A stretch of 44,221 nt of DNA from an uncultured Verrucomicrobia subdivision 3 bacterium (GTDB lineage: Bacteria; Verrucomicrobiota; Verrucomicrobiia; Limisphaerales; UBA11358): contig CAIXFY010000022.1 of assembly GCA_903918885.1 (NCBI GenBank), positions 1 to 44,221 on the forward strand. The letters run 5' to 3'. The notes beneath the pieces were generated by a model that saw only the letters and a program-made list of their open reading frames with translations, was not told the DNA's origin and made no database searches. Shown piece by piece: positions 3,454-18,026 of this stretch; the first letter of the stretch is position 1; every line of letters starts with the position of its first letter. Position numbers and translations under genes: made by a program.

Positions 3454-3488
3454 CCACCAGCTCCCAACTTCCAATTTCCAAAATTCAA
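3454..3488. repeat. Degenerate heptanucleotide repeat after the giant pilin-like gene
   Basis: Five successive 7-base units read CCACCAG, CTCCCAA, CTTCCAA, TTTCCAA and AATTCAA on the plus strand. The last unit contains the TGA stop of the gene that ends at 3485. The pattern is like the short tandem heptanucleotide repeats (STRR) known from cyanobacteria. Confidence 0.6.
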
Positions 3489-6400
3489 TTCGGCGGCAGC
3501 ACGTTGTAACTTTCCACCGTGGCCGAGTAATTCGTGACATTGTTGACAACCTTCGCATCCAGCCGGATGACCGCGCGGGCGGCACTCTCCGCCATGATCT
3601 GGTAATTGGTGACTATGCCGAATAAACCCGCGCCGGAACTGGTCACCACGCTGTCTTTGGCTGGTCGCAGCGACTGGCCGTAGCAATAAACCACATAGCG
3701 CGGCGAACTGCTGACGCGCAACAAGCCGAGTGCCTGCTGCGGCAACCATTCGTAAACCTCGTCGCTAATGCCTTTTTGCGCATAGTTCAAATTGAGAAAC
3801 GGGGATCTATCCGAAAGTGCAGATACATTCAAAATATCACCAACATGAGTGAATACTCCCGATGAAAACATGTTGGCATTCGTGCGCGCGGCATTGATGC
3901 CATTGGCTCCGTTCAAAATCTGCCATAGTTGAGAATTAGCCGTATCCACGCCCGCCGGATTGAGGTTATACCAAGTGGTGGACGGGCGAATCGTGTAAGA
4001 CGCCTGTGGATTCACCGCATTATTGGAAAGCACAACCATGCCACCAAACAACGCGGACCACGCCGCCAGATTCTTCTGGTTGACCGAAAGTGTGCCGTGA
4101 GCGGCGTTGTCGTTGAACCGTGTGGTGAACAAATCGAACAAGATTTGATCTTGCAGCGGGGACGCGTTGGTCGCGTCGAAATAATTTTGATTTCCAGTCC
4201 AAGTTGGCCATGTCAAATAGCCAGCAGCGTCTTGTAGAACATTGGTTGCCTTTAGATAAACCGTTTGCCACGGCGTGCCCCGATGGACACGGCCAATCCA
4301 GCCAATCGTCGGATACAGGTTCGTGGGGAAATCCCAATTCTCCGGACACCAGACTAGAGAGTCTTTGAACGCAGTGTTATACGCAGCAGAATCCACATTC
4401 GCCTTGCTTTGCATTTGTTTGCTCCACCCCCACGGTTGATAACGATCACCGACAGAACCCAGAGACGTGGGAGGCAAAGTGAGTTTGTCGCTATTATTCC
4501 AACCTATCGTCCCGGGATCTACATAAGCTAGGTCGCTCCCCATATAGTGCACCAAAGGATCATTCGCTTGCCACACTGCATGATAATAAACCGACCTTGT
4601 AGGCGTGTAAGGAGCCTGCACGACATATTCACCATTTAGGTAAACTTGTTGGTTGTATTGAAAACTGGGCTTGAAGAAACCATCAAAAAAGATCTTCTCG
4701 TCAGCGGGCGTTGAAGAAATTGATGCTGGCATTTGGGGTGGTCTTATCCAGTCCTTTGGATTTGGCGCACTATAGCCAGGCGATCCTCTTGAAACTAAAA
4801 TCTGATCCACAATCCCAAAGGGTGGCAACAGAGATGGCGGTTGATAGGCATTGGTGCTCCACATATAACCCTGCGCAGAATTCTGCGGATAATCCGGGTC
4901 AGCCAGCACTTGGTTGACATTTGTGTGGTCAATCGGTCCACGCAATTGGACGTAATCAATCACTTTGTTACCGTCGAGAATAAATGCTTGCAACGAATTG
5001 GTAATTGAAAGCCCAAGCACTCCCTGATGATCCAAACCCCAAAGCGGCTGATTGGTTTCCCAGGTCTGGCCGCCTGAACTGGGAACCAAATAACCTGTGC
5101 TTAACCGATAGATAGATTCCGGCAACGAGTTAAACGTCCAATTGACAGAATAAAATGAATAGGCATTGGGATTCGGAGCCGCGAAACCGGGTATCGTGTT
5201 ACCGGTTCCGACTCCCCATTTTGACCCCGACCAAGTAGTGATGTTTGTGGTGTAGATAAAATTGGTAGTGCTGACAAAAGGCGATGACGGTTGAAACTGA
5301 AATCCATTCGGAAAAATCTCGTTGGTCAGTGATATTTGAATCGTGTCCGAACCATAAACCGTCACCGGATGGGGATAAGTATTGGAATATGAGTTCCAGA
5401 AAGAAATCCCCAGATTGTTGGTCATGCTCATCACATACATCTGGTTGGTTTTGTAAATCGTGGTAGCGTCTAAATTCGTGTTATTGCGGCTGACCTCCGC
5501 CTTACGCGTCACCTGCAAAAGGTTGTTCATATAAAGTTGATTGAAACTTGGGATATTTTTCTTTGCCCCGATAATCCAAGGCACGCCATAGACGTTGACG
5601 AAAACATTGTTGGCCGTCGGCAGCAACACTTGCGAAGAATCAAACGCGGTCCCTAATTGAACGTCACCAATGCCGGTAACGGTGTCAATGTTGGTGTAGC
5701 CGGCAACGTAGAGATTGCCTAACGTGTCCCGCGTAAATTTCGGCCGGAACACAGAGGGATAAAAACTGTTCGTCGAGGCGTCATACAGATTCGCCGCGAG
5801 CTGGAGCACGCGGTTGACGGCGGGCGAATAGACAAAGTTGCCGTTCACCTGCACCGGAATGTTGGCGATGCCAAAAGCCGGCACCATGTTCGTGCCCAGC
5901 AGCGCATTCGTAAAACCGTAGCCCGTGTGGCGATCCACATAGCCATCGGCATAGTTCATGCCGTAATACGTCAGCAGATAATTCGACGGCCCGGCGGCAA
6001 ACCAGTTGGAGGAATAAGACCGCAACATCCGGTCGGCGGCGTTGGTGAAAAATTCCAGCGGCGACCACGCGAGCAGATTGGTCTCCATGCCGGACACGAC
6101 CGCGCCGTTGGTCATGTTCCGAAAATTCAAATTCATCTTGCCGCCGTCTGCCGAGGAATCCGTGCCGAGCTGATCGAGCAACCGGTAAAAAGTATAACGG
6201 TCGTAGGTGGAGTTGGAGGTGCCCGCCGTCGCGAGATGATAAACGAAATTGGTCGGCACAATTTTGGATGTGTCGAACAAGTCGGACGGCAGCGAGAAAA
6301 AGCGGTTGGTGTTGTCAGCACCAGCCCAAGAAATCGTGCCCGGATGGAGGTCCGCATCCGCCGACGGACTTAAATTCTCGTTGATGTTCGCGCTCGTGAA

Positions 6401-7438
6401 CTGCAGCGGGCCGTCGCTGTAGGCGTCAATATTGTCGTAAGGGAAGACGTTGGCTGCATTCGGGAAAATCTGCGACGCCTTGGCGAGGGAACTGTAGTCG
6501 TTGGCATAACGCCACGCCAAAATTGATTGGGCATCATAAAAGGCAACGCCGTGATTACCGCCGCCTGGATATTGGTAGTAATAGGAAGTGTTGACATTAA
6601 GTGCATCCCCAATTACCTGCCCCCACTGGTTTGTATTCAAGTCCGCCAGAAATGCCGCGAGGTTGATTTCCCACGAGCCCACACCTTGATTACGAAAAAA
6701 CGCATCTGACAAATTATTGTTCACGGTGGTAATGGCGCTATTCCCATCCATAACTTGGTTGTGAATATAATTCAAATCCAACCCATTGCCGATGGGCTGC
6801 GCCATAAACGCATAGCGCGCCACGAAATGGTTGTTGGCACTGTGCGGCTGGTCGGGCCGTTCCAGCACGCCAATCCATTCCGGGTCGCCGACTTGGAATG
6901 AAAAGTTGCCATTGGTAAAGCCGGTGCTGTCCACATCCGCAATCCAGCCGTTCGATTCAAACTGTCCGTTGCGGTTCGCATCCAGATAAAACCGGTAGTC
7001 CGCCGGGCCGTTGTTGTTCGTGATGATATAGACCGGCGCCCGCGGAAGGATGAACAGATTCGTCAGGTCGCCCAAATCACCGAAAGTCAGCGGCAGATAA
7101 TTCGTCGAGACCAACAAATGATAATCGTAAGCCGCCGTGTTGGTCGCAAAGATGCTGGCCGCAATCTGTGCCTGCGCCGCCGCGAGCGCGGAGTCCGCCG
7201 CCAGCCGCGCAACCGCCGTGTCCGTGGTGGTGGCCACCGCGCTGCGTTCGCGCCGCGAGAGCGCCAGAAACGCCACCGCCATGATGAGTGTGACCGACAG
7301 CATGATGAGCGTGATGACCAGCGCTATGCCGCGCTCGCGGCGAGCGGGAGCTGGGAGATAGCAGATAGGAGATAGGCCGGGGGCAATTTTTCTTGCTCCT
7401 GACTTCTGACTTCTGACTTCTGACTTCTGGGTTTTCAT
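3485..7438 (-). CDS. Giant pilin-headed protein, resembles Verru_Chthon cassette protein A / PilX-GspK-like
   Basis: The protein has 1317 residues. A single hydrophobic stretch at about residues 37-60 (RGIALVITLIMLSVTLIMAV) is followed by a basic patch and an Ala-rich amphipathic helix, as in PilX or GspK N-termini. The remaining ~1200 residues are rich in Asn, Thr, Tyr and Trp, have no motif I recognise, and look extracellular. Start ATG 7438 overlaps the stop of the upstream pseudopilin gene as ATGA, which supports this start even though the first ~35 residues are encoded by heptanucleotide repeats. Length, N-terminus and neighbours match what I recall of 'Verru_Chthon cassette protein A', a family named from Verrucomicrobium and Chthoniobacter and without known function. 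Codons 4200-5700 look more AT-rich than the ends, by eye. A tip or surface-display role is inference. Confidence 0.8.
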   Translation of the reverse strand: MKTQKSEVRSQKSGARKIAPGLSPICYLPAPARRERGIALVITLIMLSVTLIMAVAFLALSRRERSAVATTTDTAVARLAADSALAAAQAQIAASIFATNTAAYDYHLLVSTNYLPLTFGDLGDLTNLFILPRAPVYIITNNNGPADYRFYLDANRNGQFESNGWIADVDSTGFTNGNFSFQVGDPEWIGVLERPDQPHSANNHFVARYAFMAQPIGNGLDLNYIHNQVMDGNSAITTVNNNLSDAFFRNQGVGSWEINLAAFLADLNTNQWGQVIGDALNVNTSYYYQYPGGGNHGVAFYDAQSILAWRYANDYSSLAKASQIFPNAANVFPYDNIDAYSDGPLQFTSANINENLSPSADADLHPGTISWAGADNTNRFFSLPSDLFDTSKIVPTNFVYHLATAGTSNSTYDRYTFYRLLDQLGTDSSADGGKMNLNFRNMTNGAVVSGMETNLLAWSPLEFFTNAADRMLRSYSSNWFAAGPSNYLLTYYGMNYADGYVDRHTGYGFTNALLGTNMVPAFGIANIPVQVNGNFVYSPAVNRVLQLAANLYDASTNSFYPSVFRPKFTRDTLGNLYVAGYTNIDTVTGIGDVQLGTAFDSSQVLLPTANNVFVNVYGVPWIIGAKKNIPSFNQLYMNNLLQVTRKAEVSRNNTNLDATTIYKTNQMYVMSMTNNLGISFWNSYSNTYPHPVTVYGSDTIQISLTNEIFPNGFQFQPSSPFVSTTNFIYTTNITTWSGSKWGVGTGNTIPGFAAPNPNAYSFYSVNWTFNSLPESIYRLSTGYLVPSSGGQTWETNQPLWGLDHQGVLGLSITNSLQAFILDGNKVIDYVQLRGPIDHTNVNQVLADPDYPQNSAQGYMWSTNAYQPPSLLPPFGIVDQILVSRGSPGYSAPNPKDWIRPPQMPASISSTPADEKIFFDGFFKPSFQYNQQVYLNGEYVVQAPYTPTRSVYYHAVWQANDPLVHYMGSDLAYVDPGTIGWNNSDKLTLPPTSLGSVGDRYQPWGWSKQMQSKANVDSAAYNTAFKDSLVWCPENWDFPTNLYPTIGWIGRVHRGTPWQTVYLKATNVLQDAAGYLTWPTWTGNQNYFDATNASPLQDQILFDLFTTRFNDNAAHGTLSVNQKNLAAWSALFGGMVVLSNNAVNPQASYTIRPSTTWYNLNPAGVDTANSQLWQILNGANGINAARTNANMFSSGVFTHVGDILNVSALSDRSPFLNLNYAQKGISDEVYEWLPQQALGLLRVSSSPRYVVYCYGQSLRPAKDSVVTSSGAGLFGIVTNYQIMAESAARAVIRLDAKVVNNVTNYSATVESYNVLPPN
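7348..7429. repeat. Two heptanucleotide repeat tracts inside the 5' end of the giant pilin-like gene
   Basis: Positions 7348-7375 read GAGCTGG, GAGATAG, CAGATAG, GAGATAG. Positions 7395-7429 read GCTCCTG followed by ACTTCTG four times. Both tracts have a strict 7-base period and are translated, giving SEVRSQKS-type residues between the start codon and the membrane segment. Confidence 0.85.
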
Positions 7439-8328
7439 TGGTAGGCCGTGCGGTCAACATTCGGGATGCTCACGCGCTGACGAAACACATGGACAGCGCC
7501 GGATTGTCCCGCAAGATAATTAGATTGGGTAATTGACGGAAAGGTCAGCGATTCGGCTCGCGCCAAGACCTGATCTTCCAGCACGCCCAGTTCCAATTCC
7601 ACAGCAGCCGGAACCGCGTTGCTATACATATAAAACGCCGTCTCACCATAGGCGGATTGATTGTAATAGGGGACAAACATGGGCGCAGCGGCGGTGGGAT
7701 AAAAAGTGTTCAGCCAAAATCCGTTCTTGTCATAGGCGCGCAAAGTGAGGTGCACCACGCCGTCAATGATGTGACTCAAGGAGCTGTTGGTCCAGCGGCC
7801 ATTGAAAACCTGATTGGTGAAGTCATTGAACAACGCCCGCGGATCCGCCGTGATGTTCGTAAAACTGTAATACCGGTAAAGCGAGAACAGCGGGCTGGCG
7901 TCCGTGGCATCCACGGCGTAGCCGATGCCAATCCACCGGGTGTTTTCCCGGCTCAAACTGAAAAAATAGTTCAACACATTCGTCCGTTGGACGATTGGAT
8001 AACTTCCCGGCAGACTCTGCTGCAACGGAGAGTAAGCGTAATAAATCGGGCCGACCGTTAAATTCACCGGACCGTTGCTCGCGCCGCCGGATGGCGTCAT
8101 GTTATGGAGGTCGGTGGCAATCAAATCCATTGCCGCGCGGCTGCCTTCCAGCACGTCCGCCTGCGTGGCCGCCGCGCGAAACGCGCGCTGCGTGCTGCTG
8201 AACACCTGCATCAATGCCAGCACGATGAGCGACAGCAGCGACACCACCACCAAAACTTCCAAAAGCGTGAACGCGCCGACCGAGCGGCGGCTCACGGACA
8301 ATTTAAAATTGGAAATTGGAAATTTCAC
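7435..8328 (-). CDS. GspJ-like pseudopilin, resembles Verru_Chthon cassette protein C
   Basis: The prepilin signature GAFTLLEVLVVVSLLSLIVL puts cleavage after Ala19, with Glu at mature +5. A helix (RAFRAAATQADVLEGSRAAM) and a large periplasmic domain follow, 297 residues in all, consistent with GspJ-type minor pseudopilins. The frame is open further upstream to 8457, but GTG 8328 overlaps the stop of the upstream gene as GTGA and matches the coupling seen at neighbouring junctions. The leader (KFPISNFKLS) is encoded by a 7-base repeat. In type II secretion, minor pseudopilins I, J and K form the pseudopilus tip; the order here (I-like, J-like, giant protein) fits that role by inference. Confidence 0.8.
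   Translation of the reverse strand: MKFPISNFKLSVSRRSVGAFTLLEVLVVVSLLSLIVLALMQVFSSTQRAFRAAATQADVLEGSRAAMDLIATDLHNMTPSGGASNGPVNLTVGPIYYAYSPLQQSLPGSYPIVQRTNVLNYFFSLSRENTRWIGIGYAVDATDASPLFSLYRYYSFTNITADPRALFNDFTNQVFNGRWTNSSLSHIIDGVVHLTLRAYDKNGFWLNTFYPTAAAPMFVPYYNQSAYGETAFYMYSNAVPAAVELELGVLEDQVLARAESLTFPSITQSNYLAGQSGAVHVFRQRVSIPNVDRTAYQ
8301..8328. repeat. Heptanucleotide repeat at the start of the GspJ-like gene
   Basis: Four 7-base units, ATTTAAA, ATTGGAA, ATTGGAA and ATTTCAC, lie immediately after (in minus-strand sense) the GTG start and encode the prepilin leader peptide. Confidence 0.65.
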
Positions 8329-9083
8329 GGCACGTTGGTGAACGATTGCGACTGGTAATAAAAATAATTGAGATTCGTCTGCACTAATTGTCCGGCGACG
8401 AGCGTGCGGAACGTCTGGCGACCGCTGCCAAGGTTGCCGTTGGGGAGTTGCGGCCAAAGGAACGTGAGGCGCAATTCATGTTGGTTCGCCGCCAAATGTT
8501 TGGCAAAACCCACGAGCTTGCCACTGTTATCCGCCGCCATCGGGGCGTTAACACACAGCAAACGATAGGTGAAAGAATCTTCCACCATGATCTGATTGTT
8601 TTGCGGCGGTTTTTCCGCCGCCAATCCGTTGAGCGAACGAACGTAGGCGACGATGTGATTGCTGTAACCCTTGTTGTTCCAGTCATTATTAATCGGATAG
8701 AATTCCGGATCCGTCGTAAACTCCGGCGTGCTCAAGATGCCAATGATTTTTGCGCCGGTGTCCATCAATGACGGCGAGAAACCTTTGGTATTTATTTGTG
8801 GCGGATTGCCCGGCTTAAACAGCACCTGAAAGTTGGTGATGGCATAGACATAGTTCGTCAAATCATCCGCGCCGCGCGAGCCGCTGCGGATGGTTTCCAG
8901 CAGCATGGTGGCTTCCTGATTGATGATGGTTTCTTCGCGGTTGTCGCGCTGGGTGTTCAAGCCGATGGGCAACACGCCGATGATGGCCACGAGCGCAAAG
9001 CCAATGATGGCCAGACAAATCGCAATCTCCATCATCGTGAAGGCAGCGATCGGGCGCGCGGGTTGTGTGGCGGAAAATTTCAT
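8325..9083 (-). CDS. GspI-like pseudopilin, resembles Verru_Chthon cassette protein B
   Basis: The protein has 252 residues. The prepilin site is AA|FTMMEIAICLAIIGFALV with Ala14 at -1 and Glu at +5. The following IGVLPIGLNTQRDNREETI and an amphipathic helix (INQEATMLLETIRSG) match what I recall of Verru_Chthon protein B and, more loosely, GspI/PilV. ATG 9083 overlaps the upstream stop as ATGA, and its own stop overlaps the next start as GTGA, so translation of the set is probably coupled. It would be processed by a prepilin peptidase, which is not encoded in this window. Confidence 0.8.
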   Translation of the reverse strand: MKFSATQPARPIAAFTMMEIAICLAIIGFALVAIIGVLPIGLNTQRDNREETIINQEATMLLETIRSGSRGADDLTNYVYAITNFQVLFKPGNPPQINTKGFSPSLMDTGAKIIGILSTPEFTTDPEFYPINNDWNNKGYSNHIVAYVRSLNGLAAEKPPQNNQIMVEDSFTYRLLCVNAPMAADNSGKLVGFAKHLAANQHELRLTFLWPQLPNGNLGSGRQTFRTLVAGQLVQTNLNYFYYQSQSFTNVP

Positions 9084-9913
9084 TGCATCCTGAAATGTTG
9101 CAGCTTCGCGCGGCCGGTTTGCGGGTTGATGTCAATGACGTTGTAGGAAATGTTCGTGCTGTTGCCGGGCGGATTTTCGGTGATGTCGCTGGCGGTCAAC
9201 GGCGTCACCGGAATGGTGGGCAGCTTCGTTGTTTGGTCCACACCAAAACTCACCGTTCCCTGCGCCAGCGGAATGTAGGCGTGCTGAAAATTATTTCCGT
9301 CAGCCGTTTCCGAAATCAGCCGGCCCAAATAATCAAAGGCGATGCAAGGCAGCGACACCGCCGCCGATGACTCGGTGGGAAACGGAATTGGCGTCCGCGC
9401 AAAGCCGTAGATTTGCGTCCGTGGATTTTGCCAGTTATCAATTTGCCCTGCATTGTCCGACGTCCACTGCGGAATGGTCATGGAGTAGTTTGTCCCTTGA
9501 AATTTCGCGGCGGCGATGAACGCACCTTCCGGCAACGACTGCCAGTCGGCCAAATAATGCCAAACGTGCTGTCCCGGTTGGTCGCCAACCTTGCCGTAGG
9601 AAATGAAATTGTAGGCGGCCAGTTGCTTGTCCAACAGATTGGTGACGACAGAAGCATTGGTGGTTGTGATGAACGTCGCGAAGGAAAAATTTGTCGGCAC
9701 AAAAACCATGTAAACCGTCGTGCGCTGGCTGATGGCAAGCTGGCGCGCCCGGCCGATGTCATCCAGCAACTGCCGCGAGGCGCTGACTTGGAGGTTGGAT
9801 TTGCCGAGGTTCTTGAGCGCCGGCACGGCCAACGCAGCGAGGATGCCGAGGATCGAAATGACCACGAGCAACTCGATGAGCGTAAAGGCAAATTGGCGGC
9901 GGACGCGTTTCAC
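9080..9913 (-). CDS. GspH/FimT-like pseudopilin, resembles Verru_Chthon cassette protein D
   Basis: The protein has 277 residues with a short basic leader and prepilin site QFA|FTLIELLVVISILGILAAL (Ala9 at -1, Glu at +5). The segment VSASRQLLDDIGRARQLAIS followed by QRTTVYMVF is typical of GspH/FimT minor pseudopilins. It ends in an ATGA overlap with the GspI-like gene and starts 8 bases after the upstream GspG-like gene, so it is clearly in one operon. Beyond the N-terminal 60 residues the sequence is not recognisable. Confidence 0.82.
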   Translation of the reverse strand: MKRVRRQFAFTLIELLVVISILGILAALAVPALKNLGKSNLQVSASRQLLDDIGRARQLAISQRTTVYMVFVPTNFSFATFITTTNASVVTNLLDKQLAAYNFISYGKVGDQPGQHVWHYLADWQSLPEGAFIAAAKFQGTNYSMTIPQWTSDNAGQIDNWQNPRTQIYGFARTPIPFPTESSAAVSLPCIAFDYLGRLISETADGNNFQHAYIPLAQGTVSFGVDQTTKLPTIPVTPLTASDITENPPGNSTNISYNVIDINPQTGRAKLQHFRMQ

Positions 9914-9921
9914 AAAAAAAG

Positions 9922-10716
9922 TTACCAGCTCACGACGTTGTCTTTGTTCAAACCGACCGTGGCGTTGGCGTTAGGATCAACCTGTTTATCTGGCCCGGCG
10001 GACCAGACCATGACTTTGCCGTGGTAGAGGAAATGGTCGCCGTTGCCGTTGTTATCAACCGGATTGAAGAGGCCATTATAGCCAGCGGTTCCACTTTGCT
10101 GGGAAACATTTTTGGTCGAGTAGAAAAAATCTTTCGTGCCCTGCTCGTTGTAGCTGGAATTCATCGTGATGACGTAAGGATTACCCCACGGATCACGGTA
10201 AATGCCGTTGTTGTCCACTCCGCCCAGCGGCTGGCTACCCGTGCCCGGATCACCAGACAGTTTGGCGTTGAGATATTTTACCTGCTTGGGATTTTTTTGA
10301 TGGTTGATGTTTTGCGTCGGCAAACCGTTGGGATAGGTTGTCAAATCCATGAGGATGGCCACGACGTTGCTATTGTTGCCATAAGTCCATCCTGAATTAA
10401 TTCCCAGCCAGGTGACGCCCGTCTGCGGATTCTGAACATAACCACAGGTGAAATCATTCGTTCCAGCAAAATATTGCTCGCTACCCGCTCCCGACGTCAT
10501 GGGAAATCTTCCATAGTCGGTATCGTAGGCATTGATGGCGTTGACGAGGTCAGCCATCTCGGCCTTGGCCTTCATCTTCTTTGCTTTGTCTGGAACTTTT
10601 GCCAGCACCGGCAGCAGCATGCCCGCCAGAATGCCGATGATGGCGATGACGACGAGCAGTTCGGTGAGGGTAAAACCTCCGCGCGAAAGGCGGGGTGATG
10701 AAAGTTTAGTTTTCAT
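9922..10716 (-). CDS. GspG-like major pseudopilin
   Basis: The protein has 264 residues. Cleavage is predicted at GG|FTLTELLVVIAIIGILAGM (Gly14, Glu at +5). The helix KKMKAKAEMADLVNAINAY with DTDYGRFP and the later DPWGNPYVITM match GspG-type pseudopilins, which carry a conserved W-GNPY loop. The C-terminus (KVMVWSAGPDKQVDPN) resembles the calcium-binding end of GspG (SAGPDG). It is longer than classic GspG (about 145 residues), which is usual for this phylum. A 66-base gap separates it from the upstream pilin gene. Confidence 0.85.
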   Translation of the reverse strand: MKTKLSSPRLSRGGFTLTELLVVIAIIGILAGMLLPVLAKVPDKAKKMKAKAEMADLVNAINAYDTDYGRFPMTSGAGSEQYFAGTNDFTCGYVQNPQTGVTWLGINSGWTYGNNSNVVAILMDLTTYPNGLPTQNINHQKNPKQVKYLNAKLSGDPGTGSQPLGGVDNNGIYRDPWGNPYVITMNSSYNEQGTKDFFYSTKNVSQQSGTAGYNGLFNPVDNNGNGDHFLYHGKVMVWSAGPDKQVDPNANATVGLNKDNVVSW

Positions 10717-10782: not shown

Positions 10783-11496
10783 TTATGGCACGGAGGTGTC
10801 GTTGATTGGCACTTGCCGGGTCCAGTTGCAAATCAAGTGGTTCTTTCCATTAACACTCAACTGCACCCACAAGTCATAAGAACCGGGATTTTTGATGCCG
10901 GGATACCGGTGGCGAATGGGGTTCAGGCCAGAGGTAATCAAGGGCTGGTAACTATCATCCGGCCCACCAACGGAAGTCACGAGAACGGTGGTGGCGACTC
11001 CATTGTTGGTCACAAGATTATACACTTGCTTCTGCCGTATGCCGGTCAGGAAATTTTTCGCCTTGATGTCATCGTCACCGCTGCCTTTGGTGCAATTAAT
11101 AAAACCACTAACGCCATAGGCACTCGGCACATCGACCGCCTTGATGCTGGTGCTGCCGTCCAGCGTTTGAAAACCCGGAGCGCCACCAACGGTCGCCGCT
11201 TCCATACCGGACAATTCATAGTAGAGTTGGGGGAGCAGTTGAAAGAACGCAGCGTTCGTATTCATATTACTCGGCGGATAAAAACCAAACTTGGCCTTAT
11301 AATTTTCCAGTGCGGTTTCGATGAATTCCAGTTCGCCACGCGCGACTTTTTTGTATTGGACCGCCTTGACGGATCTCAACACGGGTATGGTGAAGCCCGC
11401 CAGCACGCCGATTATAGAGATGACGACGAGCAGCTCGACCAGCGTGAAGCCTAGGCCACCGCCGGTTTTCAATTTAGTATTTCCGTTTGTTCTCAT
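10783..11496 (-). CDS. Second GspG-like prepilin
   Basis: The prepilin site is LG|FTLVELLVVISIIGVLAGF (Gly16, Glu at +5). The helix KKVARGELEFIETALENYKA followed by KFGFYPPSN is characteristic of GspG-type pilins, and the end (KNPGSYDLWVQLSV) corresponds to the usual C-terminal loop. The frame is open to 11529, but ATG 11496 overlaps the antitoxin stop as ATGA, and this start gives a normal leader. The protein therefore has 237 residues. Its translational coupling to an antitoxin gene is odd for a structural pilin. Confidence 0.82.
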   Translation of the reverse strand: MRTNGNTKLKTGGGLGFTLVELLVVISIIGVLAGFTIPVLRSVKAVQYKKVARGELEFIETALENYKAKFGFYPPSNMNTNAAFFQLLPQLYYELSGMEAATVGGAPGFQTLDGSTSIKAVDVPSAYGVSGFINCTKGSGDDDIKAKNFLTGIRQKQVYNLVTNNGVATTVLVTSVGGPDDSYQPLITSGLNPIRHRYPGIKNPGSYDLWVQLSVNGKNHLICNWTRQVPINDTSVP

Positions 11497-11762
11497 TTCA
11501 ATTCCTGTTCCATGCGTTCGCTCAACCATTGCTTGATCATGCTCTGGTAATTCAAAAACCGCATCCGCGCCAGCCGCTTGATGCGTGCCAGCATCCGCGG
11601 GTCAATCCGCAGCGTGATGGTCACCGACTCGGATGATTCCATGCTGCCGGAGACCGCCGCCTCCATCAGCCGCAGGTCGGGACGGTTCTCCAACCAAAAA
11701 CTGGCCTCAGCCAATTCGCTGTCGAACAGTGGCACGTCTTCCCAGTTGGCAAAAGTTTGCAC
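11493..11762 (-). CDS. CopG/ribbon-helix-helix antitoxin (BrnA-like)
   Basis: The protein has 89 residues and starts with GTG 15 bases after the toxin stop. The C-terminal half, SVTITLRIDPRMLARIKRLA then RMRFLNYQSMIKQWLSERM, is a ribbon-helix-helix fold of the CopG-antitoxin type: a beta strand (TITLRI), two helices and the conserved YQS-IK-WL motif. The N-terminal half (NWEDVPLFDSELAEASFW) would be the toxin-binding part. Antitoxins of this kind neutralise the toxin and repress their own promoter. Its stop overlaps the start of a pilin gene (ATGA), so pilin translation may depend on antitoxin translation. Confidence 0.82.
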   Translation of the reverse strand: MQTFANWEDVPLFDSELAEASFWLENRPDLRLMEAAVSGSMESSESVTITLRIDPRMLARIKRLARMRFLNYQSMIKQWLSERMEQELK

Positions 11763-11777
11763 GGTAAAATCAGTTCA

Positions 11778-12059
11778 CTACGCGAGGGTTTGATCCATTT
11801 TGCGTTGATAGAAGAAGCGTTCTTCCGGCTCGAATGGCCGCGCCAGCAGCACCCGCACTTGTTTTCCGTTGGTGCGATAAACGCTGTAAACTCCGATGCC
11901 GGCGGCCGACATGCCGAGGTTGAAAAACCGCGCCTGCACGCCAAAACGCGGCGTGTCCGGCATCAGCCGCACAGCGAACGGATCTTCAAACGACTCTTCT
12001 ATTTCCCGCTGGGTCAAAGAACCAAGCTCAAAAGGCGGGTTATTCCAATCGAACTCCAT
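11778..12059 (-). CDS. BrnT-like toxin of a type II toxin-antitoxin pair
   Basis: The protein has 93 residues. The pattern MEFDWNNPP, FEDPFAVRLMPD, ARFFNLGMSAAG, VYSVYRTNGKQVRVLLAR and PFEPEERFFYQRK follows the BrnT ribonuclease layout (FEWD, a FxDP segment, a YTxxG strand, R-ISAR and a final ERxxYE). Toxin first and antitoxin second is the usual brnT-brnA order. BrnT is an RNase toxin of the RelE-like fold; catalytic residues cannot be assigned here by eye. It lies between gspF and the pilin genes, behind its own promoter-like sequence. Assignment to BrnT rather than another small RelE-fold toxin is moderately sure. Confidence 0.7.
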   Translation of the reverse strand: MEFDWNNPPFELGSLTQREIEESFEDPFAVRLMPDTPRFGVQARFFNLGMSAAGIGVYSVYRTNGKQVRVLLARPFEPEERFFYQRKMDQTLA

Positions 12060-12091
12060 AACGGGTTAGTTGTAAATAATTCGCCCATGCT

Positions 12092-12114
12092 TTGTGAATA
12101 CATTGTATTTACAA
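12092..12114. promoter_or_regulatory. Operator-like palindrome of the toxin-antitoxin promoter
   Basis: TTGTGAATAC and GTATTTACAA are inverted repeats with one mismatch in ten and a 3-base centre. The palindrome covers the predicted -10 box. A further half-site, TTGTAAATA, lies at 12070-12078 between the promoter and the toxin start. This is the expected layout for autorepression by a ribbon-helix-helix antitoxin. Confidence 0.6.
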
Positions 12115-12134
12115 TCAAGGGCAAAAATTGTCAA
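12106..12134 (-). promoter_or_regulatory. Promoter ahead of the toxin-antitoxin / pilin genes
   Basis: On the minus strand a perfect TTGACA (12129-12134) and TAAATA (12106-12111) are 17 bases apart. Predicted transcription starts near 12099, leaving a leader of about 40 bases to ATG 12059. Confidence 0.55.
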
Positions 12135-12167: not shown

Positions 12168-13484
12168 TTAGTCTTTTCCGCCTTTTGAACCGCCCTCACC
12201 GCTCAAGTTGGTGATCATGGCAATCAGGGGCAAAAACATCGCGATCACGATACTGCCGACGATTACCGCCAGAAAAACAATCATGATCGGTTCCAAAAGC
12301 GAAGTCATCGCCTCGACGGCATTATCCACTTCTTCGTCGTAGTTATCAGCGATCTTCAGGAGCATTTCGGGCAACGCGCCAGTTTGTTCACCGACGTCCA
12401 CCATGCTGACGACCATCGGCGGGAATACCCGCGACGCTTCGAGCGGCGCAGTAATGGTTTCACCTTCCTTCACGCTTTCATGAATGGAATTGACGGCGTT
12501 GGCGATGATGACATTGCCGGCGGTCTCCTTGACGATGGTCAACGCCTGCAAAATCGGCACGCCGCTGCTGACGAGCGTGCCTAGCGTGCGCGTAAAACGA
12601 GAGATCGAAACTTTGGTCACCACACCACCGGTCGGCGGCATGACGAGTTTTACTTTGTCCCAAACATGGCGGCCAAATTTCGTTTTGATGAACAGCAAAA
12701 AAATGACCACGACCACCGCCACCGCGCCCATGGTGCCGAGAATGTTGTTTTTAATCGTGTCGCTGAGCCACAAAACAAACAATGTGAATCCCGGCATCGT
12801 GATGCCCATGCCGCTGAACACATCCTTGAACTTGGGAACTACGAAACACATCAGCAAAATCATGATGCCGACGGCGACAATCAAAACAGCGACGGGATAG
12901 AATAACGCCGCTTTGACCTTACCCTTGATCTTCTGCGCCTTTTCAGAAAACTCCGCGAGACGCTTCAAGACGACTTCCAGCACACCGCCTAATTCGCCGG
13001 CCTTAACCATGTTGACGAACAGCCGGTTAAAAACTTTCGGATGTTGCGCGAGCGCCTCGGAAAAAGTGCTGCCCCCTTCGATGGCGGTGGCAAGTTCGGC
13101 CAGAATTCTTTTCAGGTTCGCATTGCGCTCCTGTTTTTCCAAAACACGCAAACCCCGCAGCAAAGGCAAACCGGCGTCCACCAGCGTCGCCAACTGGCGA
13201 GTAAAAGTCGTCAACACCTTGGGCTTCACCCCCCCGCCAAGACCGGGAATCTTGATGTTGAGATTCATGCCGCCTTTTTTCCCACCCGCTTTCGGTTTGG
13301 CGGTGGGTTTGCCCTTGGTCTTTTTGGCGGCGGATTTTTCTTCCTTGTCTGCCTCGACAATTTTCGTCGGAAACAACTGCATTTCCTTCACGCGGCCGAT
13401 GGCCTCGTTCTGGCTGCCGGCTTCAATCGTGCCCTTGGATTCACTGCCACGAGCATCAAGAGCTACATAATTATATCTAGGCAT
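12168..13484 (-). CDS. GspF/PilC inner-membrane platform protein
   Basis: The protein has 438 residues. It starts with the usual MPRYNYVALDARG segment and has two GspF domains: TTFTRQLATLVDAGLPLLRG at about 93-112, and a second repeat with SRFTRTLGTLVSSGVPILQA. Hydrophobic segments include LFYPVAVLIVAVGIMILLMC, the segment around MGAVAVVVVIFLLF, and the C-terminal PIMIVFLAVIVGSIVIAMFL. It anchors the assembly ATPase at the inner membrane. A Lys-rich stretch (about 45-72, EEKSAAKKTKGKPTAKPKAG) between the N-terminus and the first domain is an unusual insert. It lies 12 bases downstream of the ATPase gene. Confidence 0.95.
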   Translation of the reverse strand: MPRYNYVALDARGSESKGTIEAGSQNEAIGRVKEMQLFPTKIVEADKEEKSAAKKTKGKPTAKPKAGGKKGGMNLNIKIPGLGGGVKPKVLTTFTRQLATLVDAGLPLLRGLRVLEKQERNANLKRILAELATAIEGGSTFSEALAQHPKVFNRLFVNMVKAGELGGVLEVVLKRLAEFSEKAQKIKGKVKAALFYPVAVLIVAVGIMILLMCFVVPKFKDVFSGMGITMPGFTLFVLWLSDTIKNNILGTMGAVAVVVVIFLLFIKTKFGRHVWDKVKLVMPPTGGVVTKVSISRFTRTLGTLVSSGVPILQALTIVKETAGNVIIANAVNSIHESVKEGETITAPLEASRVFPPMVVSMVDVGEQTGALPEMLLKIADNYDEEVDNAVEAMTSLLEPIMIVFLAVIVGSIVIAMFLPLIAMITNLSGEGGSKGGKD

Positions 13485-13496
13485 GGCGTGAGAAGA

Positions 13497-15197
13497 TTAG
13501 GTGTATTTGACGACTTCTTCGATGGTTGTATCACCATCAAAAATGCTGCGCAAGCCGTCTTCGCGCAGCGTGACCATGCCGAGTTCCACGGCTTTCTGGC
13601 GCACCACCACAGTCGGCGCGCGTTCGTTGATGAGATTGCGAATGGCATCAGAGACCACCAGCAATTCGTAAATTCCTTTGCGCCCCTTGTAGCCAGTGTC
13701 GTTGCAAGTCGAGCAGCCGCGACCGTAATGAAACATCTTGTCGCCCAAATCATGTGGTGAAAGGCCGAGCAACGCGAGCTGCTGTTCGGTCGGCTCAAAC
13801 GGCGTCCGGCAATTTTTGCAAACTGTCCGCACCAGCCGCTGACCCAGCACCGCCATCAGCGTCGTCGAAATCAAAAACGGTTCCACCCCCATGTCCACGA
13901 GACGCGTCACCGCGCCGGGCGAATCGTTCGTGTGCAGCGTGCTCAAGACCAAGTGCCCCGTCAGCGAGGCCTGAATGGAAATCTGCGCCGTCTGCAAATC
14001 GCGCATTTCTCCGACCATGATGATGTCCGGATCCTGCCGCAAAAAGGATTTCAGCGCCTTGGCAAACGTCATACCCAGCGCCTCGTTCACCGCTACCTGC
14101 ATGATGCCTTCGATGTCGAATTCCACCGGGTCTTCCGCCGTGAGTAGCTTGGAATCAATCGCATTCACACGGCGCAGACAGGAATACAGCGTCGTCGTCT
14201 TGCCGCAACCGGTCGGGCCAGTGACAACGAAAATTCCGTTCGGCCGCTGGATGACTTCCGAAACGAAATCAAAAACGTATTTGGGAAAACCCAGCGATTC
14301 GAGTTCCAGGTTTACCGAGCCGCGATCCAACACGCGCAGCACGATGGATTCGCCGAAGGCCGTCGGCAGGGTGCTCACGCGCAGGTCAATCTGCTTGCCT
14401 GCCACTGTCACATTGATACGCCCGTCTTGGGGCATGCGCTTTTCCGAAATATTCAAGCCCGCCATGACCTTGATGCGCGAAGCCACCGGCAGCGCGAGGT
14501 GCTTCGGCGGCGGCGCCATTTCGTAAAGCGCACCGTCCACGCGGTAGCGAATCTGGAAGCTCGACTCAAATGGCTCAAAGTGAATATCGCTCGCCCGATC
14601 CTGCACCGCTTGCTGCAATACCAGATTTACAAACTTGACGATGGGAATCTCATTCGCCAACGCCTCGGCTGCCGCCGCATCATCGCCGGCAGCGGTGATT
14701 TCCTTGGTGATTTTTTCGTCGCCCAGTTCTTTCAGGATTTCCGCGAAGCTTTCATTCTCCTCTTGACCGTAAAAACGTTCGATGCCGCGCTGAATGTCGC
14801 CAGGGTCGGACACCACAATCAACACATCGCGCTTCGCCGCGAACTGGATTTCATCCGCCACCTGCGGATTCAGCGGATCAGCCAAAGCCACCTGCAACAT
14901 GCCGTCCTGAAAACCCACCGGCAGACATTTATACATCTGCGCCACCTTCGCCGGAATCAGACTCAACACATCTTTGGGAATCTCCCGATCCTTCAATGAC
15001 ACCACCGCCGTGCCCAGCGACGACGCCACCACCTGCAGGATGGCGTCCAGTTTCATGATGCCAAAATCCTGCAGCACCTGCATGGCTGGCGCGGCATTGC
15101 GCTTCAGCTCCGCCAGCACTTCCTCGTATTGCAGGTCGTCAATCAGACCCTGTCCGTGGATGAGCGATAGCAGTGGATTGGAAATATCTTCAGACAT
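13497..15197 (-). CDS. Type II secretion / type IV pilus assembly ATPase (GspE/PilB), second copy
   Basis: The protein has 566 residues. The N-terminal MshEN-like domain is followed by the N2 domain ([20 protein letters not shown]), Walker [11 protein letters not shown] at about 327, an Asp box ([15 protein letters not shown]), Walker B ([13 protein letters not shown]) and the His box ([12 protein letters not shown]). Zinc-binding CxxC pairs are present (CKNCRTPF and [11 protein letters not shown]). It drives pseudopilus or pilus extension from the cytoplasm with GspF as partner, whose gene follows directly. It is a clear paralogue of the ATPase encoded at 16323-18026, with pilT between them. 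Confidence 0.95.
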
Positions 15198-15206
15198 GAA
15201 ACAAAA

Positions 15207-16316
15207 TTATTTCTTTTTGCCGCCGCCCTTGTCGACCGCCTGCGCCAAATCCATTTCCTGCAACTTGGCCATGATGGTTGTTGGATCCTGCGACTTGTTG
15301 ATGACTTCCTCGCGGGCAATCATCCCCTTCTCATATTTTTCAATCAGGCACGCATCCAACGTCACCATGCCGTATTTCATGCCCGTCTGGATGTCCGACT
15401 GGATGCGGAACGTTTTGTTATCGCGGATGAGCGCGGCGATGGACGGCGTGTTAATCATGATCTCAAATGCCGCCACGCGGCCCGGCTTGTCCACACGCGG
15501 AATCAACAACTGCGAAATCACCGCCTGCAACACCGTCGAAAGCTGGATGCGCACCATTTCCTGCTGGTTCGAGGGAAACGCGTTCGTCAAACGATCAATC
15601 GTCTTCGCCGCGCCCGTCGTGTGCAGCGTGCCAAAGACCAAGTGGCCTGTTTCCGCCGCCGTGATGGCCGCCTCGATGGTTTCCAAGTCGCGCATTTCGC
15701 CGACCAGAATCATGTCCGGATCTTGGCGCAGCGCGCGGCGCAACGCCTCGGCAAAATTCGGCACATCCACATGCACTTCACGCTGCGTGATGAGCGCCTT
15801 CTTCTGCTTGTGGTAATATTCAATTGGATCTTCCACCGTGATGAGATGCACTTCCTCGCGCGTCTCATTGACGAGGTTCAGCAGCGACGCGAGCGTCGTG
15901 GTCTTGCCGGAACCCGTCGGGCCGGTGACGAGAATCAGCCCGCGCGGCTTGAACAAAAGTTCCTTCACCGATTCCGGCAAACCAATTTGCTCAAACGTGA
16001 GCATCTTGCTCGGAATCTGCCGCAGCACCATGCCGAAATTTCCCTTTTCCTTGAACACGCTCACGCGGAAGCGCGCTGCCTCGCCAAACGCAAACGCAAA
16101 ATCCGCGCCGCCGCGTTCACGCACCTGCTGGATGTGTTCCTCGCTCGTGATGGAGCGCATCAATTCCTCCGAAGTCTCCGGCGTCAGCGGCGGGCCTTCC
16201 ACGCGGTGCAGCGTGCCGTGAACGCGGATGGTCGGCGATGTGCCGACGCGCGTGTGCAAGTCAGAAGCGCCTTCCGACACCACCAACTGCAACAAGTCTG
16301 ACATGGCGTATGACAT
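15207..16316 (-). CDS. pilT: PilT-type twitching/retraction ATPase
   Basis: The protein has 369 residues. It begins with the short PilT N-terminus (DLLQLVVSEGASDLHTRVG) rather than an MshEN domain. Walker A GPTGSGKTTT is at about 132, Walker B at QDPDMILVGEMRDLET, and the His box is GHLVFGTLHTTGA. The C-terminal SIAALIRDNKTFRIQS corresponds to the AIRNLIRE region needed for retraction in PilT. There is no zinc tetracysteine motif, as expected for PilT. Its presence suggests a retractable fibre rather than a pure type II secretion system. ATG 16316 is 6 bases after the upstream stop; ATG 16304 is an alternative start. Confidence 0.93.
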   Translation of the reverse strand: MSYAMSDLLQLVVSEGASDLHTRVGTSPTIRVHGTLHRVEGPPLTPETSEELMRSITSEEHIQQVRERGGADFAFAFGEAARFRVSVFKEKGNFGMVLRQIPSKMLTFEQIGLPESVKELLFKPRGLILVTGPTGSGKTTTLASLLNLVNETREEVHLITVEDPIEYYHKQKKALITQREVHVDVPNFAEALRRALRQDPDMILVGEMRDLETIEAAITAAETGHLVFGTLHTTGAAKTIDRLTNAFPSNQQEMVRIQLSTVLQAVISQLLIPRVDKPGRVAAFEIMINTPSIAALIRDNKTFRIQSDIQTGMKYGMVTLDACLIEKYEKGMIAREEVINKSQDPTTIMAKLQEMDLAQAVDKGGGKKK

Positions 16317-16322
16317 AAAAAA

Positions 16323-18026
16323 TCAAGCTTCGTCTCCAACCGTCGCGCGGATTACTTCGTCTGGCGTGGTCAAACCAGCCAACACCTTGCGGATGCCATC
16401 TTCGCGCAGCGTGCGCATGCCCATTTCGCGGGCGCGCTGGCGCAACACGGTCGTCGGCACCTGATCGTAAATCAATTTCCGAGCCTCGTCTTCAATCACA
16501 AAAATTTCAAAAATGCCAAAGCGCCCACGGTTGCCGGTGTTATTGCAATTCTGACAGCCGCGGCCTTTCTGGATGTTGGCATTTTTCACATCCTCCATTG
16601 TCAGTCCCAACGCGCGCATTTCCGCTTCGGTCGGCGTGTAGGGCGCCATGCACTTTTTGCAAATCTTGCGGACGAGCCGTTGCGCCATCAGACAGCGCGT
16701 GGACGACGCTACCAAAAACGGTTTCACGCCAATATCCACGAGACGCGTGACGGCACCGGGCGCGTCGTTCGTGTGCAAAGTGGAAAAAACCAAATGGCCG
16801 GTGAGCGACGCGTTGATGGCGATGGAGCCGGTTTCGATATCGCGAATTTCCCCGATCATCACGATGTTCGGTGCCTGACGCAGAATCGCGCGCAAGGCCG
16901 TCGCAAACGTGAAGCCAACTTGTTCATGCACCTGCACCTGGTTGATGCCCGACAAAACATATTCCACCGGGTCTTCCACGGTGATGATTTTGCGGTCAGG
17001 GCGGTTGATGAAATTCAGGCACGAATAAAGCGTCGTGGTTTTTCCGGAACCCGTCGGGCCGGTCACCAATAAAATTCCATCTGGCAGCGCAATAATCCGC
17101 TCGAAGGTCTGTTGGTCGTCCGTCAAGAAACCCAATTCCGGCAGACCGAGGCGGAGACCTTCCTTGTCCAAAATACGCATCACGATGCTTTCGCCGTGGT
17201 TCGTGGGCAAACAGGAAACACGCAAATCAATTAGCTTGTTGCCGATTTTCGTCTGGATGCGTCCGTCCTGCGGCACGCGATGCTCGGAAATGACCATGCC
17301 CGCCTGGATTTTCAGACGCGCGATGACCGGTGCCTGCAGGCGTTTCGGCGGCGATTTCATCTCCTGCAACATGCCGTCAATTCGGTAGCGCAGTCGAAAG
17401 CGTTTTTCCAGCGGCTCAAGATGGATATCTGACGCGCGCAGTTTGAACGCGTCCACGACAATTTGATTCACCAACCGGATGAGCGGCGCATCGGTTTCCA
17501 GTTCACCACCATCTTCGACGACGACTTCCTGATTGCTGACAGCAAGCTCGTCAATGACGTCTTTGAAGACGCCAGCGTCCATGGATTTTTTCTCGCCGCC
17601 GTAGTAGCTGGCCAGTGCTGCTTCGATGTCCGAATCGGAGGCCACGCGTGGCTCAATTTCTGCGTTGAGCAAATGCTGCAATGTATCCAGCGTGTTCAAG
17701 TCGGACGGATCGGCGATGGCAATGCCGACTTTGCCTTCAGCTTTGAAAACGGGGATGACGCGGTATTTTTTGGCGATGTCGCGCGAGACGAGCGAAATGA
17801 CTTCGTCGTCTATCTTCATGTTCGTGAGATGAACGACTTCTGCGCCGAACTGCGCAGCCTTGGCCTGTGTTACATCGCCGGGGCGGATGATTTTGTTGGC
17901 TACCAAAAAATCCACGACGCCCACGCCGGCGGCGCTGGCTTCCTCGCGAGCCTTGGCTACCTGCTCGGCGTCGGTGAAGCCCAGGTCAACCAGCAGGTCC
18001 AATAAATAATCGTCTTTTTCTGCCAC
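16323..18026 (-). CDS. Type IV pilus assembly ATPase (PilB/GspE), first copy
   Basis: The protein has 567 residues and a GTG start. An MshEN domain (LLVDLGFTDAEQVAKA and an AQFGAEVVHL region) is followed by ASDIHLEPLEKRFRLRYRID, Walker A GPTGSGKTTT at about 323, TVEDPVEYVLSGINQVQV, IVMIGEIRDIETG and GHLVFSTLHTNDAPGA. The zinc motifs are CKKCMAPY and CQNCNNTGNRG. It powers fibre extension. It is the first gene of the minus-strand operon; no convincing promoter was found in the 123 bases upstream (18027-18149). Confidence 0.95.
   Translation of the reverse strand: MAEKDDYLLDLLVDLGFTDAEQVAKAREEASAAGVGVVDFLVANKIIRPGDVTQAKAAQFGAEVVHLTNMKIDDEVISLVSRDIAKKYRVIPVFKAEGKVGIAIADPSDLNTLDTLQHLLNAEIEPRVASDSDIEAALASYYGGEKKSMDAGVFKDVIDELAVSNQEVVVEDGGELETDAPLIRLVNQIVVDAFKLRASDIHLEPLEKRFRLRYRIDGMLQEMKSPPKRLQAPVIARLKIQAGMVISEHRVPQDGRIQTKIGNKLIDLRVSCLPTNHGESIVMRILDKEGLRLGLPELGFLTDDQQTFERIIALPDGILLVTGPTGSGKTTTLYSCLNFINRPDRKIITVEDPVEYVLSGINQVQVHEQVGFTFATALRAILRQAPNIVMIGEIRDIETGSIAINASLTGHLVFSTLHTNDAPGAVTRLVDIGVKPFLVASSTRCLMAQRLVRKICKKCMAPYTPTEAEMRALGLTMEDVKNANIQKGRGCQNCNNTGNRGRFGIFEIFVIEDEARKLIYDQVPTTVLRQRAREMGMRTLREDGIRKVLAGLTTPDEVIRATVGDEA

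Follow-up and report, generated by a model that had tools for sequence, protein, structure and literature searches.

Why does a gene pair resembling a toxin–antitoxin (TA) system stand at the head of a run of pilin genes? The question is raised by a contig of 44,221 nucleotides (nt) from an uncultured Verrucomicrobia subdivision 3 bacterium of the order Limisphaerales (CAIXFY010000022.1, assembly GCA_903918885.1), analysed over its whole length and called the window here. On its minus strand, two small genes, T and A, lie between gspF and a GspG-like pilin gene, P1, and a preliminary description of the interval 11493–12134 had read them as a brnT/brnA-like pair coupled to that pilin. The coordinates, a shared ATGA and family matches all bear out a BrnT/CopG-derived pair that heads the pilins with a tight junction. 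Position 12134 is the first base of a TTGACA hexamer, and thus the interval also includes a promoter and operator. We conclude that the pair is probably a domesticated BrnT/CopG-antitoxin module serving Verrucomicrobiota subdivision 3 (the Limisphaerales and neighbouring groups) as a cis-linked autoregulator of the pilin operon, and that, judged from its sequence, it is most likely a built-in switch for fibre production rather than a poison. The elements on which this conclusion depends are as follows.

12129–12134, minus strand: −35 hexamer TTGACA, read from the sequence, at a fixed spacing to the operator.
12081–12113, minus strand: operator-like palindrome TGTAAATACAATGTATTCAC..GCATGGGCG over the −10 region, a position weight matrix (PWM) match at a conserved distance from T.
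12106–12111, minus strand: −10-like hexamer TAAATA inside the operator, 17 nt after TTGACA, placed by sequence and the fixed spacing.
11778–12059, minus strand: T, a BrnT-fold pseudo-toxin of 93 amino acids without the catalytic Lys-His dyad (homology, predicted fold and alignment).
11493–11762, minus strand: A, a CopG/ribbon-helix-helix (RHH) antitoxin-family protein and predicted repressor of 89 amino acids with a GTG start (PF12441, expectation value (E) 3.8e-08).
11493–11496, minus strand: stop of A overlapping the start of P1 as ATGA (sequence and gap distribution in relatives).
10783–11496, minus strand: P1, a GspG-like (pseudo)pilin, first of the pilin run (N_methyl PF07963; TIGR01710 match below cut-off).

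Family, fold and lost dyad of the pair

T is present as a single copy in the source genome. The window protein searched alone gave a sub-threshold match to Pfam BrnT (E 0.033), 29 of 36 relatives matched this family at E ≤ 0.1 (best 7e-07), and hhalign comparison of the T profile to a canonical BrnT profile gave a probability of 97.6% and an E of 4.6e-12. In Foldseek, an AlphaFold2 model of T with a predicted local distance difference test (pLDDT) score of 85 matched 7vd7 (template-modelling score 0.65) and the BrnT structure 3u97; a canonical BrnT sequence of this order matched 7vd7 as well. A PDB sequence search with the T and A profiles returned nothing useful, and a search of a defence-system library gave zero matches. 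The partner, A, scored 34.4 bits against the CopG_antitoxin family PF12441 (curated cut-off 28), which was matched by all 33 relatives, and 16.7 bits against BrnA PF14384, under the curated cut-off of 26.1. The RHH segment of A is strongly conserved, and the protein ends in ...GAATTGAAATGA; the structure predicted for A on its own was of poor quality (pLDDT 70) and was not used.

In BrnT, K16, H17, and R72 contribute to toxicity, and the K9A and H10A mutations severely affect the BrnT-related RelS (PMC13284704). Adjacent Lys and His residues occur in the N-terminal segment of 24 of 28 canonical BrnT proteins compared to none of 99 T proteins, which do keep R44, R69, R74 (in an ISAR-like motif), E80, and Y84; we take T R74 as the counterpart of BrnT R72. 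The ratio of nonsynonymous to synonymous substitution rates was ~0.06 for T and ~0.16 for A, and on this measure T is under strong purifying selection. Retention of the BrnT fold, without the known catalytic pair and under such selection, points to a non-toxic function. The locus should not, on the sequence evidence, be filed as a BrnTA toxin–antitoxin system, because a defining catalytic feature is absent; it would rather be described as a descendant of BrnT/CopG-antitoxin modules that would operate in the manner of a TA autoregulator.

Promoter, operator and A–P1 junction

Upstream of T, the sequence reads TTGACA, 17 nt, and then GTAAATACAWTGTA..ACATTGCATGGGCG, ~54 nt before T, with the palindrome GTRAATACAWTGTATTYAC sitting on the −10 element and followed by a conserved ACATTGCATGGGCG tail. 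The PWM found an operator-like site in 67 of 69 loci from the order at a near-constant distance from T (54 nt in most), with a signal well above that of shuffled sequence, and TTGAC was present upstream in 63 of the 69, nearly always 14–16 nt before the operator start. The window site (R1) scored 34 bits and is the sole site in the window. Across 59 genomes searched, a 33-nt core model found essentially one site per genome, indicating that the site is dedicated to the pilin operon. A wider operator regulon was considered and rejected, as these genomes held no convincing second site and the extra matches were mostly the same palindrome on the opposite strand. At one locus (L154), a second operator-like site (PWM 12.3) lies at +3564 relative to T, near the end of the last pilin, and perhaps precedes the following gene in the cluster. 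Owing to its atypical −10 element, the T promoter went undetected in a generic promoter scan.

Strong intrinsic terminators separate gspF from the T promoter in ~10 of 69 loci, and none was found inside T-A-P1 in any of the 69; in the window, a generic scan found no good terminator after gspF. The conserved promoter and operator, this terminator pattern, and the tight A–P1 gap described below suggest that the pilins are most simply read from the T promoter. The preliminary description had suggested that pilin synthesis depends on antitoxin autorepression. Because the sole conserved promoter, with its operator-like site, precedes the pair, the pilins are very probably transcribed from a promoter under the predicted control of the pair.

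At the junction itself, the stop codon of A shares ATGA with the pilin ATG (11496–11494). In 67 related loci, the A–P1 gap had a median of 1 nt, overlapped in 33, and was a few nt at most in most loci, in a count that uses the first possible start and is thus permissive; an ATG sharing ATGA with the A stop was found in ~25 of the 67. By this distribution, the tightness is more than chance. It accords with the earlier suggestion that pilin synthesis depends on antitoxin translation, but the exact ATGA is common rather than universal, and P1 in the window carries an AGGA ribosome-binding-like sequence of its own, which leaves strict dependence unsupported.

We propose that A, alone or in a T–A complex, binds the palindrome over the −10 element of the T promoter and that this binding would repress transcription of T-A-P1-P2 and the genes that follow. 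T, with its BrnT fold and without the dyad, would most likely tune DNA binding by A rather than act as a ribonuclease. Toxins tune the DNA binding of their antitoxins in conditional cooperativity. Across the near-zero A–P1 gap, translation of A and of P1 would be coupled, keeping A and pilin levels in step. More speculatively, and in our view doubtfully, T may be a sensor and not a toxin, reading some aspect of pilus assembly (such as pilin mRNA, the state of the ribosome, or pilin not yet assembled) via its old RNA-binding pocket and thereby altering the grip of A on the operator. If so, fibre assembly would feed back on pilin transcription.

Distribution, losses and alternative explanations

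T was found in 123 of 146 relatives at 50–95% identity, and in 83 of the 90 good genomes. Canonical BrnT, by comparison, is patchy, passing the Pfam cut-off in 27 of 142 genomes. The closest named T records come from Verrucomicrobia subdivision 3 / Limisphaerales. The order T-A-P1-P2 was kept in every order-level locus uncut by a contig end. gspF adjoins the pair in most relatives but not all, and T-A-P1-P2 is also kept in ~14 loci that have no gspF within 5 kilobases (kb); thus, the pair stays with the pilins and not with gspF. Within the order, this pilin link extends across dozens of families. Mean p-distances were 0.33 for T, 0.29 for A, and 0.60 for P1, so that P1 has diverged about twice as much as T or A, and distances for T and A tracked those of PilT and GspE (Mantel r 0.70–0.78 for T and 0.50–0.62 for A). 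On these comparisons, the pair is vertically inherited, ancestral in the order, and found in nearly all of its members.

The preliminary description had viewed the pair as splitting an otherwise standard gspF–pilin arrangement. Comparison of the same junction in related genomes overturns this view, as order-wide synteny and the vertical signal rule out a recent insertion. In one genome of the same genus (G010:C14:6029-6496), the T match is in two pieces separated by ~190 nt, as though an insertion had broken the gene.

A was also missing from all 14 T-less genomes tested, several of which keep a gspF orthologue. In three (G119, G068, and G080; loci L242, L243, and L248), gspF is followed directly by the pilins. 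Operator searches of these three gave no match at E up to 10 in two and weak matches on other contigs in the third. The operator is thus missing where the pair is missing, indicating that it goes with the pair, and the pilins remain after clean loss of the pair, indicating that the pair is dispensable.

These results bear on whether the pair could instead be a live type II TA addiction or stress module, fixed upstream of the pilins by chance, in which T cleaves RNA via other residues and A neutralises it. We consider this unlikely. The BrnT fold, the toxin-first order known from brnTA (PMC13284704), the conservation of R74 in the ISAR-like motif, and loss of the pair as a unit all fit such a module, but the Lys-His dyad required for toxicity of BrnT and RelS (PMC13284704) is absent in 99 of 99 T proteins, the near-universal distribution and vertical descent are unlike those of canonical BrnT, and the pilins stay in place after clean losses. 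Addiction, raised earlier as a way to protect the locus from loss, is disfavoured, given the missing dyad and the clean loss of the pair in some lineages.

The T–A pair also occurs in other orders of the class. Among 28 readable loci outside the order, the operator was found in 9 of the 17 that have pilins nearby and in 0 of the 11 that lack them (one-sided Fisher test, ~0.004). In loci lacking pilins, the pair is often found behind a glyoxalase-like gene. At L163, L165, L166, L168, L170, and L171, T–A directly follows a glyoxalase / lactoylglutathione-lyase-like gene, has no operator, and encodes an A with an almost unchanged RHH segment. Weak operator-like matches, on which we do not rely, were seen in two genomes where the pair is unlinked: one (L256, G207:C3:111699-111714; E 0.59) lies just upstream of a pilin-associated membrane protein and could mean control in trans, and the other (L260, G217) lies near a pilin.

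Could the pair then be a class-wide regulator of something else, with the pilins of this order as passengers of a convenient promoter? Loci in other orders that lack pilins and operator, with the RHH segment almost unchanged and the pair standing after the glyoxalase gene or alone, speak for it. However, the operator outside the order appears only in pilin-linked arrangements, and dozens of families within the order retain the pilin link, also in loci with gspF at another place. We regard this explanation, too, as improbable. Far less credible still is the view that T and A serve the pilus machine as accessory components, contacting pilin mRNA or the assembly platform, for instance, and that some other regulator uses the operator. 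The strict linkage and the strong conservation would suit such components, but A is a clear RHH/CopG protein, and genomes that keep pilins without the pair lack the operator and dispense with the pair.

Several points weigh against the autoregulator interpretation. The pair is found without pilins or operator in other class members (L159, L161, L163, L165, L166, L168, L170, L171, and L173–L175), and so its ancestral function may be unconnected with pilins. The conserved arginines R44, R69, and R74 could leave T some RNA activity, and a different factor could bind the palindrome. Many loci, including that of the window, are without a clear terminator after gspF, making read-through from gspE/gspF possible.

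The pilin run and known systems

On the minus strand, gspF is followed by a 108-nt gap, T, A (15 nt after T), P1, P2–P5, and a protein of 1317 amino acids. The genes flanking T-A-P1 are listed here.

12168–13484, minus strand: gspF-like platform protein of the inner membrane, encoded upstream of the unit (Pfam T2SSF, E 2.5e-65).
9922–10716, minus strand: P2, second GspG-like pilin (T2SSG and N_methyl).
9080–9913, minus strand: P3, prepilin-like protein (N_methyl).
8325–9083, minus strand: P4, prepilin-like, overlapping the P3 stop by 4 nt (N-terminal FTMMEIAI segment; no Pfam match).
7435–8457, minus strand: P5, prepilin-like, with its true start probably inside the open reading frame (N_methyl just below cut-off).
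3485–7438, minus strand: large pilin-associated protein of 1317 amino acids ending the run (open reading frame with a hydrophobic N-terminal segment).

Upstream of gspF, two GspE/PilB-like ATPases (window 13497–15197 and 16323–18026) flank a PilT-like ATPase (15207–16316).

Compared to BrnT/BrnA of Brucella abortus (PF04365 / PF14384), the locus shares the toxin-first two-gene order, the BrnT (RelE-like) fold, an RHH-type antitoxin protein, and a palindrome at the module promoter. It differs in loss of the dyad in all 99 T proteins, in its near-universal and vertical distribution, in an antitoxin of the PF12441 type, and in a transcription unit that would run on into the pilin genes. A passes the PF12441 cut-off and is unusual for that family in its conservation and its fixed place beside pilins. 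RelS–RelI of M. tuberculosis is likewise toxin-first, with a toxin of low BrnT similarity, but K9/H10 are retained in RelS, which is acutely toxic, RelI falls outside known antitoxin superfamilies, and no inverted repeat was found upstream (PMC13284704).

The pilin run after gspE/pilT/gspF resembles GspG-type / Verru_Chthon cassette pilin operons. To our knowledge, usual descriptions of these operons include no TA-derived pair at the head, and, in agreement with the preliminary description, which knew of no described case, we found none of TA–pilin coupling in the open-licence literature.

TA modules on chromosomes usually have a patchy distribution and a disputed role. The TA-derived pair described here belongs to the core genome and has passed vertically through dozens of families; it lacks the dyad, is under strong purifying selection, and has one dedicated, deeply conserved operator before a fibre operon. 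It would thus offer a clear and testable example of such a module turned housekeeping regulator, and a way into the control of pili in a large soil and freshwater group of bacteria with few cultured members.
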